Source: Acidobacteriota bacterium | GTDB taxonomy: Bacteria; Acidobacteriota; Terriglobia; Acidiferrales; UBA7541 | NCBI GenBank assembly: GCA_003224085.1 | Contig: QHYK01000084.1 | Coordinates: 1-64,000 of the forward strand | DNA length: 64,000 nucleotides | Reading direction: 5' to 3' | Shown: positions 49,380 through 60,662 of the stretch, in pieces | How the letters are laid out: every line of letters starts with the position of its first letter | Numbering within the stretch: position 1 is the first letter of the stretch | The notes under the pieces: generated by a model | Databases searched by the model: none | The model's input: the letters and a program-made list of their open reading frames with translations, nothing else | Told to the model about the DNA's origin: nothing | Translations under genes and position numbers: made by a program

Positions 49380-49490
49380 GTTACGCCTCTCTGCGGAGCT
49401 CGGTGTTCTCTGCGTCTCTGCGTTATGTTTTTCTTCTCTGTCTTCTCCGCGTTCTCTTTGTCCTCTGTGCACTCGGTGTTGAATCCCGCC
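49380..49490 (-). repeat. ACACAGAG-type dispersed repeat cluster
   Basis: The minus strand holds several degenerate copies of CGCAGAGACGCAGAGAACACC and AACACCGAGTGCACAGAGGA, in front of the NUDIX gene. The same unit occurs at 50622-50665, 52965-53010, 54619-54666 and onward. Confidence 0.6.
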
Positions 49491-53087: not shown

Positions 53088-54518
53088 TTGGGAGCCAAGG
53101 TGGCGACGGGGGATAAAGGGAAGAGCGGAGAAAGCGGGAGCGCCCCAGCGACTGCGCGCCGCGGCGAGCCAGCCAGCAGGCGTCCAGCACCTCAAAGGGC
53201 GCGCGTGCTGAGCGGCATGCGGCCGACGGGCCGCATGCACGTCGGCAATTATTTTGGCGCCCTGGCGAATTGGGTGCGCCTGCAGAACGAAGTTGCCTCA
53301 GATGTAGCCACGGGCTACTCGCCACTCACTCGCCACTCGCGACTTCCTCTCTATGAATGCTTCTACTTCATTGCCGATTGGCATTCGCTGACCAGCGACT
53401 ACGCAGACACTTCCGAGATTGCGCAGAACGTCATCGAAATTGCGACCGATTACCTGGCCGGCGGCCTCGATCCGGACAAGAGCGTCCTTTTCTTGCAGTC
53501 GCTCGTGCCCGAACACGCGGAGTTGCACTTGCTGCTGTCCATGGTGACGCCGCTGGGCTGGCTCGAGCGGGTGCCCACCTACAAAGAGGCCCTGGAAAAC
53601 ATCAAGGACAAGGACCTGCACAATTACGGGTTTCTGGGCTATCCGGTACTTCAATGCGGCGACATCGTGATGTACGGCGAGCCCGGCGTGCCACTGTGCG
53701 TGCCTGTCGGCGAAGACCAGGTTTCGCACGTCGAAGTGAGCCGAGAAATCGTCCGACGATTTGACGTTCTTTACGGGCTAGATGTGATAGGCGAACTGTT
53801 TGAAAAAAGGAATGAAGCCTCTCTATTGAACTGTCTACATGGGAGGGTGTTTTGGGGCCCTGCGACAAAGCTCGAATATCCCCTGCGGGAAAGCATGCGG
53901 ACGTATCTTGTTGGCAAGCTTCGCACCACTGCAACTGAGGAAGGAGTTGAGAATTTTATAAAGCGTGTCGGAAACGCTTCTGCCTTCTTTAAGCGCGTTG
54001 ATGTTTTGACTGAACCGCAGGTGATGCTCACGAAGACGCCGCGTGTGCCGGGGCTCGACGGCCGAAAGATGTCCAAGAGTTATGGGAACACCATCACGCT
54101 GAGCGAGAGCGACGCGGACATTCGCGCCAAGACGAAAGTGATGGTGACCGACCCGGCGCGGAAGCGGCGTAGCGATCCTGGAAACCCGGATGTTTGTCCG
54201 GTGTACGACTGGCATAAACTGTTCTCGACCAAAGAGACCCTGGAGTGGGCGGCGCACGGCTGCCGCACGGCGGGAATCGGCTGCATCGAGTGCAAAGCGA
54301 AAATGGCGGACCATCTGATTGAGTGGATTACGCCGATTCGCGAGCGCCGCGTGGATTTCGAACGGCATCCCGCGCGCGTGCTGGAAGTTTTGGACGAAGG
54401 TTCGAAGAAGGCGCGCGTCTTAGCGCAATCCACGATGGAGCGCGTCCGCGAAGCCGTCTTCGGCTGGGAGAAAAAACGTAAAGAAATCACCGGCGCCGCG
54501 GGAAGCGCCAAGGCGTAG
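53088..54518 (+). CDS. trpS: Tryptophanyl-tRNA synthetase with N-terminal extension and loop insertion
   Basis: A class I synthetase charging tRNA-Trp, about 430-476 residues depending on start. The HIGH-equivalent is SGMRPTGRMHVGNYFG, then FIADWHSLTSDY, GFLGYPVLQCGDIVMY, PVGEDQVSHVE and the KMSKS loop LDGRKMSKSYGN. Family homology begins at RVLSGMRPTG (GTG near 53206); the open frame starts at TTG 53088, so the first 40 residues are doubtful. Between WVRLQNE and YECFYFIADWH about 20 extra residues occur, partly encoded by a GTGGCGAG-type repeat (53317-53343). Confidence 0.92.
   Translation: MGAKVATGDKGKSGESGSAPATARRGEPASRRPAPQRARVLSGMRPTGRMHVGNYFGALANWVRLQNEVASDVATGYSPLTRHSRLPLYECFYFIADWHSLTSDYADTSEIAQNVIEIATDYLAGGLDPDKSVLFLQSLVPEHAELHLLLSMVTPLGWLERVPTYKEALENIKDKDLHNYGFLGYPVLQCGDIVMYGEPGVPLCVPVGEDQVSHVEVSREIVRRFDVLYGLDVIGELFEKRNEASLLNCLHGRVFWGPATKLEYPLRESMRTYLVGKLRTTATEEGVENFIKRVGNASAFFKRVDVLTEPQVMLTKTPRVPGLDGRKMSKSYGNTITLSESDADIRAKTKVMVTDPARKRRSDPGNPDVCPVYDWHKLFSTKETLEWAAHGCRTAGIGCIECKAKMADHLIEWITPIRERRVDFERHPARVLEVLDEGSKKARVLAQSTMERVREAVFGWEKKRKEITGAAGSAKA
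53317..53343 (-). repeat. GTGGCGAG tandem repeat inside trpS
   Basis: actcgccactcactcgccac tcgcgac, the reverse complement of GTGGCGAGTGAGTGGCGAGT, encodes SPLTRHSR in a loop of the synthetase. Confidence 0.75.
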
Positions 54519-54666: not shown

Positions 54667-55608
54667 ATGGCGACGCCGGAGAGCAAGCTGACAGGAAAAA
54701 GCGCGGAACCAGAGGAGCAATCTGCTTCGGGCGGCGCGGAGCAGGCCGCCTCAGAAGGCGGTCCCCACAAGAGCGCGGAAATGGCCGCAGGAGAAGTTGC
54801 GGGCGGCGGTGCCGAGCAGGCCTATTCAGGTGGCGGGTACAAGATTCGCATCCCGATGTACGAGGGTCCGCTCGACCTTTTGCTAGACCTCATCAAACAG
54901 CAGAAGATGAGCATACACGACATTCGAATCTCGGAGATCACCGCGCAATATTTGGATTATCTGCACAAACTGGAAGAGTTGGACGTGGACGTTTCCGCGG
55001 AATTTATTTACATGGCGGCGACGCTGATTTACATCAAGAGCAAAATGCTGCTGCCGACGGACGCGCTGGCGAGTCCGGAGGAGCAAGCGACGGATCCGCG
55101 CGCAGAATTGGTGCAACGGCTCGTAGAACACGAAAAATTCAAAAACGCCGCGCAAATTTTGTACCAAAAGCAGCAGATTGAAGAAAACGTGTGGTCGAAG
55201 CCCGACAAAACGCTGTACCAGGACCCGGGGACGGAAGGCGAGTTGGTGGTTTCGCTGGTTGACTTGGTAAAAGTTTTCCAGCAGGTGCTGGAACGGCGCA
55301 AGGAAACGGTTCGAATCGAGCTGCAGCATGAGCAGTTCACCGTGGCTCAGATGATCGTGCAGTTGCGCGCGCAAATCATTGCGAGCGCGGAAAACAGCGT
55401 GAACCTGATTCCGTTTTTCGAGGCCTGCCCGTCGCGGCACGCGATGATCGTGGCGTTCCTGGCAGTGCTGGAAATGGTGAAGCTGCAAGCGGTGGCGCTT
55501 GTGCAGGAAAAAATGTTCGGGGACATCCTGGTGAAGAAGGGGAAGGCGTTTGACGTGGTTTTTGATGAAAATGGGGCGATTCGAATGGTGGATGAAGAGT
55601 ATCGGTAG
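54667..55608 (+). CDS. scpA: Segregation and condensation protein A
   Basis: A 313-residue kleisin that links SMC and ScpB for chromosome condensation. After a 55-residue low-complexity N-terminus the conserved part starts YKIRIPMYEGPLDLLLDLIKQQKMSIHDI, then FIYMAATLIYIKSKMLLP and the C-terminal winged helix (NLIPFFEACPSRHAMIVAFLAVLEMVKLQAV). scpB follows after 150 bases. The Ala/Gly/Glu-rich head is not seen in most family members. Confidence 0.94.
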   Translation: MATPESKLTGKSAEPEEQSASGGAEQAASEGGPHKSAEMAAGEVAGGGAEQAYSGGGYKIRIPMYEGPLDLLLDLIKQQKMSIHDIRISEITAQYLDYLHKLEELDVDVSAEFIYMAATLIYIKSKMLLPTDALASPEEQATDPRAELVQRLVEHEKFKNAAQILYQKQQIEENVWSKPDKTLYQDPGTEGELVVSLVDLVKVFQQVLERRKETVRIELQHEQFTVAQMIVQLRAQIIASAENSVNLIPFFEACPSRHAMIVAFLAVLEMVKLQAVALVQEKMFGDILVKKGKAFDVVFDENGAIRMVDEEYR

Positions 55609-55761: not shown

Positions 55762-56526
55762 ATGACGAATGAAGAGAGAAAAGCGGCGCTGGAAGCGATT
55801 ATTTACGCGGCAGATGAGCCGGCGACGATCGAACAGTTGATGAAAGCGCTGGGCGAAGAGAAAGCGGCGGTGCAGGCGTCGCTCGACGAGTTGGTGGCGA
55901 GCCATGCGGCGGAAGAGCACGGGATCGAGATTCGCGCGGTGGCGGGCGGCTACAAGATGTACACAAAGCCGCAGCAGCATGACGCGGTGCGGCGGTTCAT
56001 CAAGAGTTTGCGGCCGCCGCTGAGGCTGTCGATGCCGGCGCTCGAGACGCTGGCGGTGATCGCGTACAAGCAGCCGGTGACGGCGCCGGAGATTTCGGAG
56101 ATTCGCGGAGTGAACACTTCGGGAGTGATCAGCACGCTGCTGGACAAGCACTTGATTACGACGGCGGGGCGGAAGGAAGTGATCGGGCGGCCGATTTTGT
56201 ACAAGACGTCGAAAGAGTTTTTGATGCGATTTGGGCTGAGCGACTTGGAAGAGTTGCCGAGCTTGAAGGAGTTTGAGGCGCTGGCACGGGAAGCCCTGGG
56301 GAGCGACGAAGGCTTGGCGCCGGTGGATGCGAGTTTGACGAATGAGGCGAGCATTGGGAAAGAAGCGACGAGTGGCGAGTCGCGAGTGGCGAGCGAGGAG
56401 AAGAAAGAGGAAGGCGCGAGCGCGGAGATGGAGGCGCGGGAAGAGGTGCTGGAAGAGACCGCGGCGAATAACGAAGGAATGCCGGAGGAAGAGAATTCGA
56501 CGAAGAGTGCGGCGGCGGGAGAGTGA
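55762..56526 (+). CDS. scpB: Segregation and condensation protein B
   Basis: A 254-residue partner of ScpA. Two winged helices: KAALEAIIYAADEPATIEQLMKAL and LETLAVIAYKQPVTAPEISEIRGVNTSGVISTLLDK, ending FLMRFGLSDLEELPSLKEF. The last 70 residues are a Glu/Ala-rich tail that contains TSGESRVASEEKKEE, coded by a GTGGCGAG repeat (56368-56398). The tail is probably disordered and dispensable. The start ATG follows a weak purine stretch. Confidence 0.93.
   Translation: MTNEERKAALEAIIYAADEPATIEQLMKALGEEKAAVQASLDELVASHAAEEHGIEIRAVAGGYKMYTKPQQHDAVRRFIKSLRPPLRLSMPALETLAVIAYKQPVTAPEISEIRGVNTSGVISTLLDKHLITTAGRKEVIGRPILYKTSKEFLMRFGLSDLEELPSLKEFEALAREALGSDEGLAPVDASLTNEASIGKEATSGESRVASEEKKEEGASAEMEAREEVLEETAANNEGMPEEENSTKSAAAGE
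56368..56398 (+). repeat. GTGGCGAG tandem repeat in scpB tail
   Basis: gacgagtggcgagtcgcgag tggcgagcgag encodes TSGESRVASE in frame. Confidence 0.7.
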
Positions 56527-56789: not shown

Positions 56790-57584
56790 ATGCAGGAGAG
56801 ATTGCAGAAGATTATTGCACGGTCGGGGATTGCTTCGCGGAGGCACGCGGAAAAGCTGATCCTGAGCGGACAGGTGCGCGTGAACGGGCGCGTGGTGACG
56901 GAGCTGGGCACGAAAGCTGACGCGGCGACCGACCGGATCGAGGCAGCCGGACGAGTGGTGAAGGGCGAAGAGCGGCACGTGTACCTGGTGCTGAACAAGC
57001 CTCCGGAAGTGGTTTCGGCGATGGCGGACCCGGAAGGACGGAAGACGCTGAAGAATTGTTTGCGGGGTTTTCCGGCGCGCGTGTACCCGGTGGGGAATTT
57101 GGAGTATACGGCGTCGGGGCTGGTGTTTTTGACGAATGACGGCGATTTGGCGGCGAAAATGTTGAAACATTGGGGCGAGTTGGAGCAAGTGTACTTTGTA
57201 AAAGTGAAAGGTATGCTGACGCTGGAGGAGTTGGAGCGGCTGGGAAAAGAGATTGGCGTGCGGATGAGAACACTGCGGCAGCCGGATGCGACGCGAAGGC
57301 GGGCGGCGAATTATTGGTATGAAATGAGAATGCGGGAGACAAAGAAGTGGCGAGTGGCGAGTGGCGAGTGGCGAGAAAAGAAAAAAGAAGAAATGCGGAA
57401 CGTGCTGTTTCGCGAGGGGCATCCGGTCGAGAAGATGAAGCGCGTGGGATTGGGGCCGCTGACGGTGGAGGGAGTGGCGGAGGGGAGATACGGGATGCTT
57501 GGGGCGAAGGAAGTAGGCGAATTGAGAAAAGTGGCGAGTGGCGGGTGGCGAGTGGCGAGAACAGAGAACAAGCAGAAAACATAA
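56790..57584 (+). CDS. RluB/RsuA-family pseudouridine synthase paralogue with altered catalytic residue
   Basis: A 264-residue protein with an S4 domain (RLQKIIARSGIASRRHAEKLI) and a pseudouridine-synthase domain (YLVLNKPPEVVSAMADPEGRKTL). The catalytic motif, GRLD in the family, reads PVGNLEYTASGLVFLTNDG, so the nucleophilic Asp is Glu and the preceding Arg is Asn. It may bind RNA without isomerising uridine. An RVASGEWRE loop and an RKVASGGWRVAR C-terminus are coded by GTGGCGAG repeats. The intact paralogue follows 155 bases downstream. Confidence 0.85.
   Translation: MQERLQKIIARSGIASRRHAEKLILSGQVRVNGRVVTELGTKADAATDRIEAAGRVVKGEERHVYLVLNKPPEVVSAMADPEGRKTLKNCLRGFPARVYPVGNLEYTASGLVFLTNDGDLAAKMLKHWGELEQVYFVKVKGMLTLEELERLGKEIGVRMRTLRQPDATRRRAANYWYEMRMRETKKWRVASGEWREKKKEEMRNVLFREGHPVEKMKRVGLGPLTVEGVAEGRYGMLGAKEVGELRKVASGGWRVARTENKQKT
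57346..57375 (+). repeat. GTGGCGAG tandem repeat in pseudouridine synthase paralogue, internal
   Basis: agtggcgagtggcgagtggc gagtggcgag, nearly perfect copies of a 7-base GTGGCGA unit, encodes WRVASGEWRE in a loop just before the NVLFREGHPVEKMKRV strand. Confidence 0.8.
57531..57559 (+). repeat. GTGGCGAG tandem repeat at the paralogue C-terminus
   Basis: gtggcgagtggcgggtggcg agtggcgag encodes VASGGWRVAR at the very end of the protein and is followed by an ACACAGAG-type unit (57570-57612). Confidence 0.8.
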
Positions 57585-57739
57585 CGCAGAGACACAGAGG
57601 ACGCAGAGAACTAGCAAAGGGCACATGTTATGGAGCGTTGAAAGAAAAGCGGCGGCAAGCCGCCGCACTCCAAAAGGCTTCGCCCCATGTTGTGCAGAGC
57701 TCAGTAGTACATAGAATTTCTTCCCTTGGAAGCGGATCC

Positions 57740-58627
57740 ATGCAAGAACGGTTGCAGAAGATTATGGCGGGGAGCGGGATTGCGTCGCGACGCAAGGCGG
57801 AAGAGATGATTGCGGCGGGACGGGTGACGCTGAATGGGAAGGTGGTGACCGAACAGGGAACAAAGGCCGATGCGGAGCGAGATGAGATATGCGTGGATGG
57901 AAAGCCGCTGGAGAAGCGGCAACGGTTGCGGTTTTTGCTGCTGAACAAGCCGAAGGGATATGTGACCACGGTGAGCGATCCGGAGGGACGGCCGACGGTG
58001 ATGGATTTGTTGCCGAAGAGTGGAGAGCGCGTGTATCCGGTGGGGCGGCTGGATTACGCGAGCGAGGGATTGCTCTTGATGACGAATGACGGGGCGCTGG
58101 CGCAGAAGTTGATGAAGGCGGGCTCGCATGTGCCGAAGAGCTATCTTGTGAAAGTCAGCGGGCAGCCGGATGAGAAAGCAATTGCGCGGTTGAGAGCCGG
58201 CGTGACGATTGAGCTGGAAGATGGGCGCAGGTTGAAGACGTCGCCGGCGAAGATACGGCTAGTGGAGGACGGAAGAAGTGGCGAGTGCCGAGCGGCGAGC
58301 GGCGAGCGGGCCAACCCCTGGTATGAGGTGACTTTGATTGAGGGAAGGAACCGGCAGATTCGGAGGATGTTTGAACACGTGGGGCATCAGGTGGAGAAAA
58401 TCAAGCGGGTGCAATTTGGGCCGCTGGTGCTGGACGTGGGGCCGGGGAAGTTTCGGGAGTTGACCAAGGAGGAAGTGGAAGAGTTGAGGAGAGTGGCGGG
58501 TGGTGAGCGAGTGGTGGCGAAAGAAGAAAGAGAAAAAGATAACGCAGAAACGCAGAGGACAGTAGATAGCGCAGAGAAGAAGTACGATTCGCGTTCTAAC
58601 GCTCGCGGGTTTCGGCGGATCAGGTAA
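57740..58627 (+). CDS. rluB: RluB/RsuA-family pseudouridine synthase
   Basis: A 295-residue enzyme converting a uridine in rRNA (probably 23S, RluB type) to pseudouridine. S4 domain at RLQKIMAGSGIASRRKAEEMI; catalytic Asp in YPVGRLDYASEGLLLMTNDG; KSYLVKVSGQP and YEVTLIEGRNRQIRRMFEHVGHQVEKIKRV complete the family set. A loop before WYEVTLIEG contains GECRAASGERA from a GTGGCGAG repeat (58277-58308). The last 45 residues are repeat-derived and atypical. ATG 57740 chosen by homology. Confidence 0.9.
   Translation: MQERLQKIMAGSGIASRRKAEEMIAAGRVTLNGKVVTEQGTKADAERDEICVDGKPLEKRQRLRFLLLNKPKGYVTTVSDPEGRPTVMDLLPKSGERVYPVGRLDYASEGLLLMTNDGALAQKLMKAGSHVPKSYLVKVSGQPDEKAIARLRAGVTIELEDGRRLKTSPAKIRLVEDGRSGECRAASGERANPWYEVTLIEGRNRQIRRMFEHVGHQVEKIKRVQFGPLVLDVGPGKFRELTKEEVEELRRVAGGERVVAKEEREKDNAETQRTVDSAEKKYDSRSNARGFRRIR
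58277..58308 (+). repeat. GTGGCGAG tandem repeat inside rluB
   Basis: agtggcgagtgccgagcggc gagcggcgagcg encodes SGECRAASGER in frame. A more degenerate copy lies near 58490-58520 in the C-terminal tail. Confidence 0.75.
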
Positions 58628-58833: not shown

Positions 58834-59964
58834 ATGGCGAAGACGATTGAAGAACTGATACCGGATTACCTGCGCGGGCTGCCCGTTTACGTTCCAGGGA
58901 AACCCATTGAAGAAGTCGAACGCGAGCTGAAAATTCACGCGGTGAAGCTCGCTTCGAATGAAAATCCGCTGGGGCCGTCCCCCAAGGGGATGGAAGCGGC
59001 GCGCAAGGTGCTGAATGACTCAAACCGCTATCCCGACGGCGGAACGCTGCGGCTGCGGGAAAAAATTGCGGCGCTGCACGAGGTTTCGCCGGATGAGATT
59101 TTCATCGGACTGGGTTCCAGCGAGTTGATTGACTTGGCGGCACGCGTGCTGCTGGGGCCGGGGACCATCGGGTTGACGTCGGAAGGCACGTACCCGCCGT
59201 TTTCGACGGCGATTCGAGCGAATGGGGGCGCGGTGGAACACGTGCCCATGTGCGCGTTCGCGTACGACTTGCCAGAGATGGCGCACGCAATTACCAACAC
59301 GACTCGAATCCTCTATCTGGCAAATCCGAACAATCCGACGGGAACGGCGTTTGGAGGAGAAGACTTCGAGCGCTTCTTGAGCCATGTGGCGAGCGACACG
59401 CTGGTGGTTTTAGATGAGGCGTACATCCATTACGCCGAGCGCCCAGACATGCCGCAGTCGGTGGAACTTTTCCGGGAACGCAAGAATTTGCTGATCCTGC
59501 GGACGTTTTCGAAAGTGTATGGGATGGCAGGGATGCGCATCGGGTACGGCATCGGGGCGGCGGCGTTGGTTTCCGCGATGAACAAGCTGCGCACGCCGTT
59601 TAACGTGTCGGGGGTGGCGCAAGCGGCGGCACTGGCGGCATTGGACGATCACGAGCACGTGAAGCAGTGCATCGAGGCGAACCGCGCGGAGCGGAGGCGG
59701 ATCACCGAGGAAGTCGCGCGGCTGGGATTGAAGCCGGTGAAGAGCGAGACGAATTTTGTTTTTGTGGAAGCGGGGCCGGAGGCCAAGGCGATTTGCGAGG
59801 AATGGTTACGGGAAGGCGTGATTGTGCGGCCGCTCGGGTGGATGGGGTTTCCGGAGGCGATTCGGATTTCGGTGGGGACCAAGGAAGAAAACGATAAGTT
59901 GTTTGTGGCGCTCGGCCGGGTGCTGGCGAAGCGCAAAGGCAAGCCGGAGCTGACGGCGCGGTGA
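58834..59964 (+). CDS. hisC: Histidinol-phosphate aminotransferase
   Basis: A 376-residue PLP aminotransferase of the histidine pathway, exchanging imidazole-acetol phosphate and glutamate for histidinol phosphate and 2-oxoglutarate. Conserved elements are KLASNENPLGPSPKG, YPDGGTLRLREKIA, YLANPNNPTGT, VLDEAYIHYA, the PLP Lys in RTFSKVYGMAGMRIGY and a substrate-binding Arg in IRISVGTKEEN. No other his genes are nearby, so an aromatic aminotransferase role is possible. Confidence 0.92.
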   Translation: MAKTIEELIPDYLRGLPVYVPGKPIEEVERELKIHAVKLASNENPLGPSPKGMEAARKVLNDSNRYPDGGTLRLREKIAALHEVSPDEIFIGLGSSELIDLAARVLLGPGTIGLTSEGTYPPFSTAIRANGGAVEHVPMCAFAYDLPEMAHAITNTTRILYLANPNNPTGTAFGGEDFERFLSHVASDTLVVLDEAYIHYAERPDMPQSVELFRERKNLLILRTFSKVYGMAGMRIGYGIGAAALVSAMNKLRTPFNVSGVAQAAALAALDDHEHVKQCIEANRAERRRITEEVARLGLKPVKSETNFVFVEAGPEAKAICEEWLREGVIVRPLGWMGFPEAIRISVGTKEENDKLFVALGRVLAKRKGKPELTAR

Positions 59965-60083: not shown

Positions 60084-60119
60084 GCCCGCGTGAATTGGTT
60101 GCGCGGGCGTTTGATTTTA
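60084..60119 (+). terminator. Terminator after hisC
   Basis: GCCCGCG-tgaattggttg-CGCGGGC followed by GTTTGATTTT. A closely similar hairpin ends the next gene. Confidence 0.7.
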
Positions 60120-60212
60120 TGGGACAGAGTCGTTCTGCGAAGAAAAAAGATACCACACAGAGCGCGCAGAGGTCAGAGCACGGGGAACACAGAGAAGAAA
60201 AGGAAAGACGCG

Positions 60213-60662
60213 ATGAGAGTGCTGGTGCCGGAAGGGTCGGAGTTTGGGGCCAAGAACGGGACGGACCCGATTTCAGAAATTTTGCAGAAGTGCAGGACGA
60301 TTGCAGTGGTGGGGTTGTCTTCGAACCCGATGCGGCCGAGCCATGCGGTGTCGGAGTACATGCAGCGCGCGGGGTACCGGATTATTCCGGTGAATCCGAA
60401 TGAAAAGGAAGTGCTGGGGGAGAAGAGTTACGCGCGGCTGGAGGACGTGCCCGAGAAAATTGATGTGGTGAATATTTTCCGGCGGGCGGATGAGGTGTCG
60501 CCGATAGTGGAGAGCGCGATTCGGGTAGGCACGCAGGTCGTGTGGATGCAGTTGGGAATTGAGAACGAAGTGGCGGCGGAGAAGGCGCGAGAGGCGGGAT
60601 TGGCGGTGGTGGAGGATGCCTGCATTTTGGTGGAGCATCGGAAGAGGGGGATTGGGAGATAG
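60213..60662 (+). CDS. CoA-binding protein (YccU type)
   Basis: A 149-residue Rossmann protein of the CoA_binding family: TIAVVGLSSNPMRPSHAVSEYMQRAGYRIIPVNP, then KIDVVNIFRRADEVSPIVESAI and the C-terminal VVWMQLGIENEVAAEKAREAGL with VVEDACILVEHRR-like end. It resembles the nucleotide-binding half of succinyl-CoA synthetase but has no catalytic partner; the physiological role is unknown. ATG 60213 follows AGGAAAG in an ACACAGAG-type leader (60153-60205). Confidence 0.9.
   Translation: MRVLVPEGSEFGAKNGTDPISEILQKCRTIAVVGLSSNPMRPSHAVSEYMQRAGYRIIPVNPNEKEVLGEKSYARLEDVPEKIDVVNIFRRADEVSPIVESAIRVGTQVVWMQLGIENEVAAEKAREAGLAVVEDACILVEHRKRGIGR

Follow-up and report, generated by a model that had tools for sequence, protein, structure and literature searches.

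The first of two neighbouring genes for RluB-like proteins in a bacterium of the order Acidiferrales (Acidobacteriota, class Terriglobia, family UBA7541) is best explained, with a probability that we put at about 0.6, as encoding a retained rRNA-binding pseudoenzyme, i.e. an S4-domain factor that would lack pseudouridine synthase activity. The two genes lie in a stretch of 64,000 nucleotides (positions 1 to 64,000 of contig QHYK01000084.1, assembly GCA_003224085.1), referred to here as the window. As a first-pass annotation of the window had reported, they adjoin each other; both are open reading frames on the forward strand: P1 (56790-57584, 264 amino acids; YPVGNLEYTASGLV), a protein of the RluB lineage with a rebuilt active site, an S4 domain and the PseudoU_synth_2 fold, and P2 (57740-58627, 295 amino acids from the ATG at 57740; YPVGRLDYASEGLL), a canonical RluB-type pseudouridine synthase. 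That annotation had rightly singled out the replacement of the catalytic Asp by Glu in the first copy; what it had missed are an Asn in the place of the base-flipping Arg, an altered motif III, a repeat lying in frame within P1 and an origin of the pair other than by duplication.

In motif II, P1 carries YPVGNLEY where P2 has YPVGRLDY. Alignment maps the GNLEY segment of P1 (57093-57107; codons GGG AAT TTG GAG TAT for Gly102, Asn103, Leu104, Glu105 and Tyr106) to RluB Arg108 and Asp110, with Asn103 (57096-57098) at the position of the base-flipping Arg and Glu105 (57102-57104) at that of the catalytic Asp; the corresponding GRLD of P2, part of GRLDY, is encoded at 58043-58054. The catalytic Asp has been described as the sole absolutely conserved residue of pseudouridine synthases (PMC7822408). 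We followed both positions through 81 aligned sequences of the P1 lineage (30 from the genus of the window, 46 from the rest of its family and five from family f3 of the same order) and through 160 canonical relatives (57 from other families of the class, 24 P2 copies and 79 from named genomes of several phyla). The rows of E. coli RluB, E. coli RsuA and a third copy in the window's genome were not counted, and two further sequences, a lineage member whose DNA equals that of G082 over 2,000 bases (L142) and a duplicate (O_G051_L134), were left out of the canonical count. The catalytic Asp is replaced by Glu, Pro or Tyr in 65 of the 81 lineage sequences (Glu 59, Pro 5, Tyr 1, with Asp in 16) as against none of the 160 canonical relatives, all of which have both Asp110 and Arg108. 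At the Arg108 position, the lineage has Arg 54 times, Asn 24 times, Gly twice and Ser once.

Within the genus, motif II reads GNLE in 24 of the 30 P1 orthologues, GRLD in three, GRLE in two and GSLD in one. The NLE of the first copy is thus conserved in 24 of 30 assemblies, and the GRLD form, whose presence in orthologues the first-pass annotation would have taken as a sign of a local mutation or an assembly error, is confined to a minority, both here (3/30) and, counted as Asp, in the lineage as a whole (16/81). These Asp-bearing members share the altered motif III described below and so do not represent an unchanged starting state. Nor is the change specific to a spare copy, since no P2 was found in the genomes of 35 of the 59 carriers of Glu; among the lineage genes from P2-less genomes that are at least 90% complete, 19 of 28 have Glu. 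Replacement of the catalytic Asp is therefore a conserved feature across the order and is not confined to a spare copy, and at least eight changes between Asp, Glu, Pro and Tyr are counted on a quick tree. Two further states of this position were observed: all five genomes of family f3 (G038-G042, loci L066-L070) have Pro (GRLPY), and G107 (L093) has Tyr (GRLYY) next to a close relative, G108, which keeps Asp.

Motif III has been rewritten throughout the lineage. The canonical EGRNRQIRR, which P2 retains, aligns without gaps to lineage sequences such as EARRDALRN, and the lineage departs from the pattern EGRxxQ(I/V)R. The exception to the gap-free alignment is the P1 of the window, whose motif III region (57336-57398) contains in-frame copies of a 7-bp repeat, GTGGCGA (57347-57375, read as WRVASGEWR); this insert is peculiar to it, and no other aligned P1 row has an insert there. 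The position of RluB Gly191 is Gly in a single lineage sequence, and position 195 is Gln in three and Glu in 18 of the 81. A consistent difference concerns RluB Arg194, which is acidic in 81 of 81 lineage sequences (Asp 60, Glu 21; Glu200 in P1, 57387-57389). None of the 160 canonical relatives has an acid at this position; they carry Arg, Asn, His or Gln and, in rare cases, Leu or Lys. Outside motif III, RluB Arg138, which is reported to tie the bulge-binding loop to the RNA (PMC3919597), is replaced by a lineage-specific Gln in all 81 sequences (Gln133 in P1, 57186-57188). By comparison with both groups, RluB Glu135, a bulge contact, is uninformative, as it varies in the lineage and the canonical set alike. 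A total of 29 positions, many of them in the S4 domain, are at least 95% conserved in both the lineage and canonical RluB. Because the GRLD-bearing members share these lineage features, motif III was probably rewritten first and Asp lost afterwards. The sequences would fit a course in which the active site was rebuilt early in the lineage, with motif III rewritten and Arg138 turned into Gln, after which the catalytic Asp would have been replaced several times and the base-flipping Arg additionally lost in most of the window's genus.

In spite of these changes, the overall architecture of the protein appears to be preserved. P1 has an S4 domain (PF01479, residues 3-44, E 1.2e-13) and scores 40.1 bits against PF00849 (cut-off 26.8), and P2 likewise has an S4 domain and a PF00849 match. 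The first-pass annotation had credited P1 with a full S4 domain plus catalytic fold; the S4 domain stands, while the PF00849 match, though present, covers only positions 2-94 of the 152 of the profile. Against TIGR00093 (cut-off 109.3 bits), P1 falls below at 72.6 bits and P2 above at 165.3 bits. A scan of 77 lineage members with the RluB model NF007976 gave matches in all of them (E at most 1e-5), and P1, the only member whose score is listed, reaches 72 against a cut-off of 290. An AlphaFold2 model built from P1 and 76 relatives has a mean pLDDT (predicted local distance difference test) of 89.3, and its best matches among solved structures are RluF and RluB with RNA (4lgt), with VIA-align Z scores of 20.6 and 20.1 and root-mean-square deviations of 3.4 over 225 residues and 3.6 over 232 residues, respectively. 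The model also matches RluB in 9cl9 (Z 15.3), by its entry title an assembly fraction or intermediate with RluB bound.

The gene is moreover under purifying selection. Ratios of nonsynonymous to synonymous substitution (dN/dS, Nei-Gojobori) were calculated for 24 chosen pairs, of which G001/G003 is near saturation at synonymous sites. They amount to 0.04-0.16 for P1 (nine pairs), 0.045-0.14 for P2 (seven pairs) and 0.05-0.19 for other genera of the family (seven pairs), with the highest value, 0.30, for the single pair from f3. No stop codon was found within the matched stretch of any P1 row. Given the recurrence of NLE in the genus and this selection, both of which had been proposed as checks, the two options raised at first pass for the first copy, a retained pseudoenzyme or a changed mechanism, were the right pair. 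At E 1e-30, a lineage gene is matched in 81 of the 95 genomes of the order; in the genus, 30 of the 36 genomes have P1.

P1 is best regarded as the order's own RluB orthologue, resident and inherited vertically, since it shares its place next to scpB with the canonical RluB of the class. ScpB (55762-56526, forward strand, PF04079) lies upstream of P1 in the window; it adjoins the lineage gene in 69 of 81 loci, and in other families of the class, where RluB is canonical, 16 of 17 loci have ScpB beside that gene. Often TrpS and ScpA also precede the gene in lineage loci, and an aminotransferase and a CoA-binding protein follow. In the window these are, all on the forward strand, a TrpS-like tRNA synthetase (53088-54518, PF00579 for class I W and Y enzymes; the name TrpS is presumptive), ScpA (54667-55608, PF02616), an aminotransferase (58834-59964, PF00155; presumably HisC-like) and a CoA-binding domain protein (60090-60662, PF13380). 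In a careful, unrooted tree of 63 rows chosen from the alignment of the lineage and its canonical relatives, from which the columns of motifs II and III had been removed, the P1 lineage forms one side of a branch with support 100/97. A quick tree of 109 rows, rooted on distant homologues, nests the lineage among the RluB proteins of the class, with several weak inner branches; as it came with long-branch warnings for the outgroup, it served for the change counts and as a second view only. The quick tree left out the duplicate, the partial P1 of G025, the P1 of G013, the partial sequence of G038 and those P2 rows that had not been chosen.

P2 has a different history. Of the 30 genomes of the genus that have P1, 25 also carry P2; most have it directly downstream of P1, and in G020 and G021 it lies close by on the opposite strand. 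Elsewhere in the order it was not found, either with P2 as the query (searched in the genus, G036, f2 and f3) or with P1 as the query (E 1e-30, whole order). Of 299 genomes sampled from the class, 250 gave a match, and 40 of these were chosen for comparison; all matches ranking between the intact P2 copies of the genus and the match from G153 (family f6, 60% identity) belong to family f11 (56-70% identity). In the careful tree, P2 and the f11 group share one branch (100/99). P2 is thus probably a canonical RluB that was acquired horizontally from another family of the class and would have settled just downstream of P1, and the transfer would have been into the genus, because P2 is absent elsewhere in the order. 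Several P2 copies are irregular. Those of G018 (L010/L133) and G029 (L012) are split over two reading frames and may be decaying or wrongly assembled; their pieces are outside the 24 P2 rows, and both genomes are counted as P2-bearing. In G030, a second P2 copy lies on another contig (L132, C182) before an aminotransferase gene, possibly from a second strain in the bin.

The presence of P2 coincides with the state of the base-flipping Arg in P1. Of the P1-bearing genomes of the genus, all 25 that have P2 lack Arg108, and the five that have no P2 all retain it. The Fisher p of 7e-06 for this association ignores relatedness and is not taken as a probability; since the P2-bearing genomes cluster together, the coincidence reflects one event or a few and is no statistical proof. 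Still, it fits a scenario in which the base-flipping Arg of P1 was freed from its last constraint once P2 had arrived. Two P2-less genomes outside the genus, G071 and G074 (GGLE), have lost Arg108 as well.

As P1 has lost both Arg108 and Asp110, loss of activity is its likeliest state. Most likely, then, P1 would no longer make pseudouridine, would bind 23S rRNA near the peptidyl transferase centre through its S4 domain and intact fold, and would serve as an assembly or folding factor, and where P2 is present, the pseudouridine at U2605 would most likely be made by P2. For the relatives with Glu only, which mostly keep Arg and Tyr, the sequences leave the functional state less clear than for the P1 of the window. 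Disappearance of the target was considered as a cause of lost activity and rejected: the relevant stretch of 23S rRNA was found in 38 of the 95 genomes of the order, and in the 30 in which the stem-loop 2587-2607 could be read, none of them from f3, it is intact and both U2604 and U2605 are present (30/30). Loss of activity, if real, is hence not explained by loss of the target, with the caveat that the ribosome itself constrains this sequence.

RluB itself has been detected in particles that accumulate without RlmE, and in E. coli catalytically dead RlmB is reported still to aid assembly of the 50S subunit (PMC11194073). Pseudoenzymes of the pseudouridine synthase fold are likewise already known, as illustrated by two human proteins. 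Mitochondrial RPUSD3, of the RluA family, resembles P1 in having lost the catalytic Asp, there to Gly, and is described as having no noticeable activity on rRNA or tRNA (PMC12716993). Silencing of RPUSD3 or TRUB2 depletes the large subunit of the mitoribosome, although the same source mentions older work linking both proteins to pseudouridine in two mitochondrial mRNAs (PMC6414753), so the inactivity of RPUSD3 is not settled. TRUB2 has a diverged catalytic domain, is described as lacking noticeable tRNA activity and has been suggested to act in large-subunit assembly (PMC12716993), but it belongs to the TruB family and carries other changes. RPUSD3, for its part, is of another family and another domain of life and has an active close homologue, RPUSD4, beside it, whereas the altered protein described here is, in most genomes of the order, the one RluB orthologue found. 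The same fold also occurs, by their entry titles, in large-subunit particles of kinetoplastid mitoribosome assembly intermediates (7am2, 7aoi, 6yxx), whose match to the P1 model is weaker (Z 9.1 for 7am2 and 8.6 for 7aoi). The closest comparison remains RluB itself, with which P1 shares the S4 domain, the fold (Z 20.1 to 4lgt), the place beside scpB and the equivalents of Tyr140 and Arg197, and from which it differs by Glu for Asp110, Asn for Arg108, Gln for Arg138 and the rewritten EGRNRQIRR.

Several observations weigh against a retained pseudoenzyme or against the history proposed for it. An acid stands at the catalytic position in 75 of the 81 lineage sequences, RluB Tyr140 is Tyr in 77 (Trp and Phe in two each; Tyr135 in P1, 57192-57194) and Arg197 is present in 81 of 81 (Arg203 in P1). 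Among lineage genes from P2-less genomes, 54 of 56 keep Arg108 (49 of 51 outside the genus and five of five inside), pointing to a continued importance of base flipping in them. An assembly role independent of activity is also not general, as the catalytically dead RluC(D144A) of E. coli, by the account in the same study as for RlmB, gave no help to 50S assembly (PMC11194073). In addition, no lineage gene was found in six of the 36 genomes of the genus and in 14 of the 95 of the order (at E 1e-30; G007, G012, G034, G037, G064, G111 and eight others), including six of its 52 most complete, meaning that either the gene is dispensable or the assemblies are incomplete; the gene can probably be lost. 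Finally, ScpB was not found in the stretch covered for 12 of the 81 lineage loci, some of which come from contig ends.

Four other explanations were weighed against a pseudoenzyme, and two of them concern the origin of the unusual sequence rather than its function. A sequencing or binning error, or a dying pseudogene, could be suspected from the in-frame repeat in motif III of the window's P1 and from the split P2 genes of G018 and G029, but its probability is close to nil in view of the orthologues: GNLE is found again and again within the genus (24 of 30 assemblies), other replacements are found across the order, dN/dS is low (0.04-0.16) and the matched stretches are free of stop codons. Scarcely more probable is a recent tandem duplication after which the spare copy decayed or gained a new role, as implied when the two genes were first annotated as adjacent paralogues. 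P1 and P2 are indeed adjacent, of the same direction and 44% identical, yet the approximately unbiased test rejects both a single clade of genus P1 and P2 (p 3.4e-47) and a grouping of P2 with the whole lineage (p 0.0012), and the changes in question are already present in single-copy relatives.

The other two explanations grant P1 a catalytic function. In one, which we regard as unlikely, the Glu form is still a pseudouridine synthase that uses Glu as the nucleophile in a slightly reshaped pocket, at least where it is the sole RluB and has Arg108, Tyr140 and Arg197. The repeated interchange between Asp and Glu, the acid kept in 75 of 81 sequences, the Glu in 19 of the 28 P2-less genes from near-complete genomes and the intact target all speak for it. 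This idea has difficulty in accommodating the Pro of f3 (5/5) and the Tyr of G107, all of which come with the same type of motif III, and the P1 of the window, which also lacks Arg108. A change of this residue to Ala is reported to leave RluB with 0.6% of its activity, as compared with about 3% for Y140F, and loss of the Asp to inactivate TruA, TruB, RluA and RsuA (PMC3919597). The other explanation, more doubtful still, holds that the carboxylate has been relocated: the acid at RluB position 194 could have taken over catalysis, or serve a different reaction, thereby freeing position 110. In its favour, the acid is present in all 81 lineage sequences and none of the 160 canonical relatives and persists in the members with Pro or Tyr at position 110, and in human Pus1 His292, at the same spacing (three residues before Arg295), lines the active site (PMC3983220), if the two positions are equivalent. 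On the other hand, canonical RluB is already variable at position 194, and a salt bridge with Arg197 would explain the acid equally well. As for Glu in the place of the nucleophile, the corresponding form of TruA is reportedly inactive. A retained pseudoenzyme thus remains the reading that we favour for the P1 of the window.

What seems new here is that the only RluB orthologue found in a large part of an order has had its catalytic residue replaced, with a conserved acid in motif III, and that a canonical copy is later present alongside. No report of the P1 lineage or of a natural Asp-to-Glu pseudouridine synthase was found in the literature, in a search that had most subscription journals outside its reach. 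The orthologues form a natural series (Asp, Glu, Pro or Tyr; with or without Arg; with or without P2) that would make it possible to test which parts of the protein persist once catalysis is altered, and whether enzymes of rRNA modification owe their conservation to their chemistry or to their binding of the pre-ribosome. Should the carboxylate indeed have been relocated, the lineage would be a case in which an enzyme with the pseudouridine synthase fold does, in nature, without the aspartate of motif II and still modifies a uridine. The automatic annotation as ‘pseudouridine synthase’ would be doubtful for many genomes of the order.

The locus is also marked by dispersed repeats. The 7-bp unit (GTGGCGA)n, searched as GTGGCGAGTGGCGAG with at most one mismatch, gives 12 matches, some of them overlapping, where shuffled sequences lead one to expect none. 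The sites include 56372-56393, 57347-57375, 57531-57559 and 58278-58292, and the repeat lies in frame within P1 (the motif III region and the C-terminus), P2 and the C-terminus of ScpB. Other inserts just before the N-x-W-Y sequence were seen in the P2 of G019 and G030 and in the P1 of G018. A second dispersed repeat, AACGCAGAGACACAGAG, has three matches with at most two mismatches against 0.01 expected, namely at the 3′ end of P1 (57583-57599), at the 3′ end of P2 (58541-58557) and elsewhere in the window (49408-49424).

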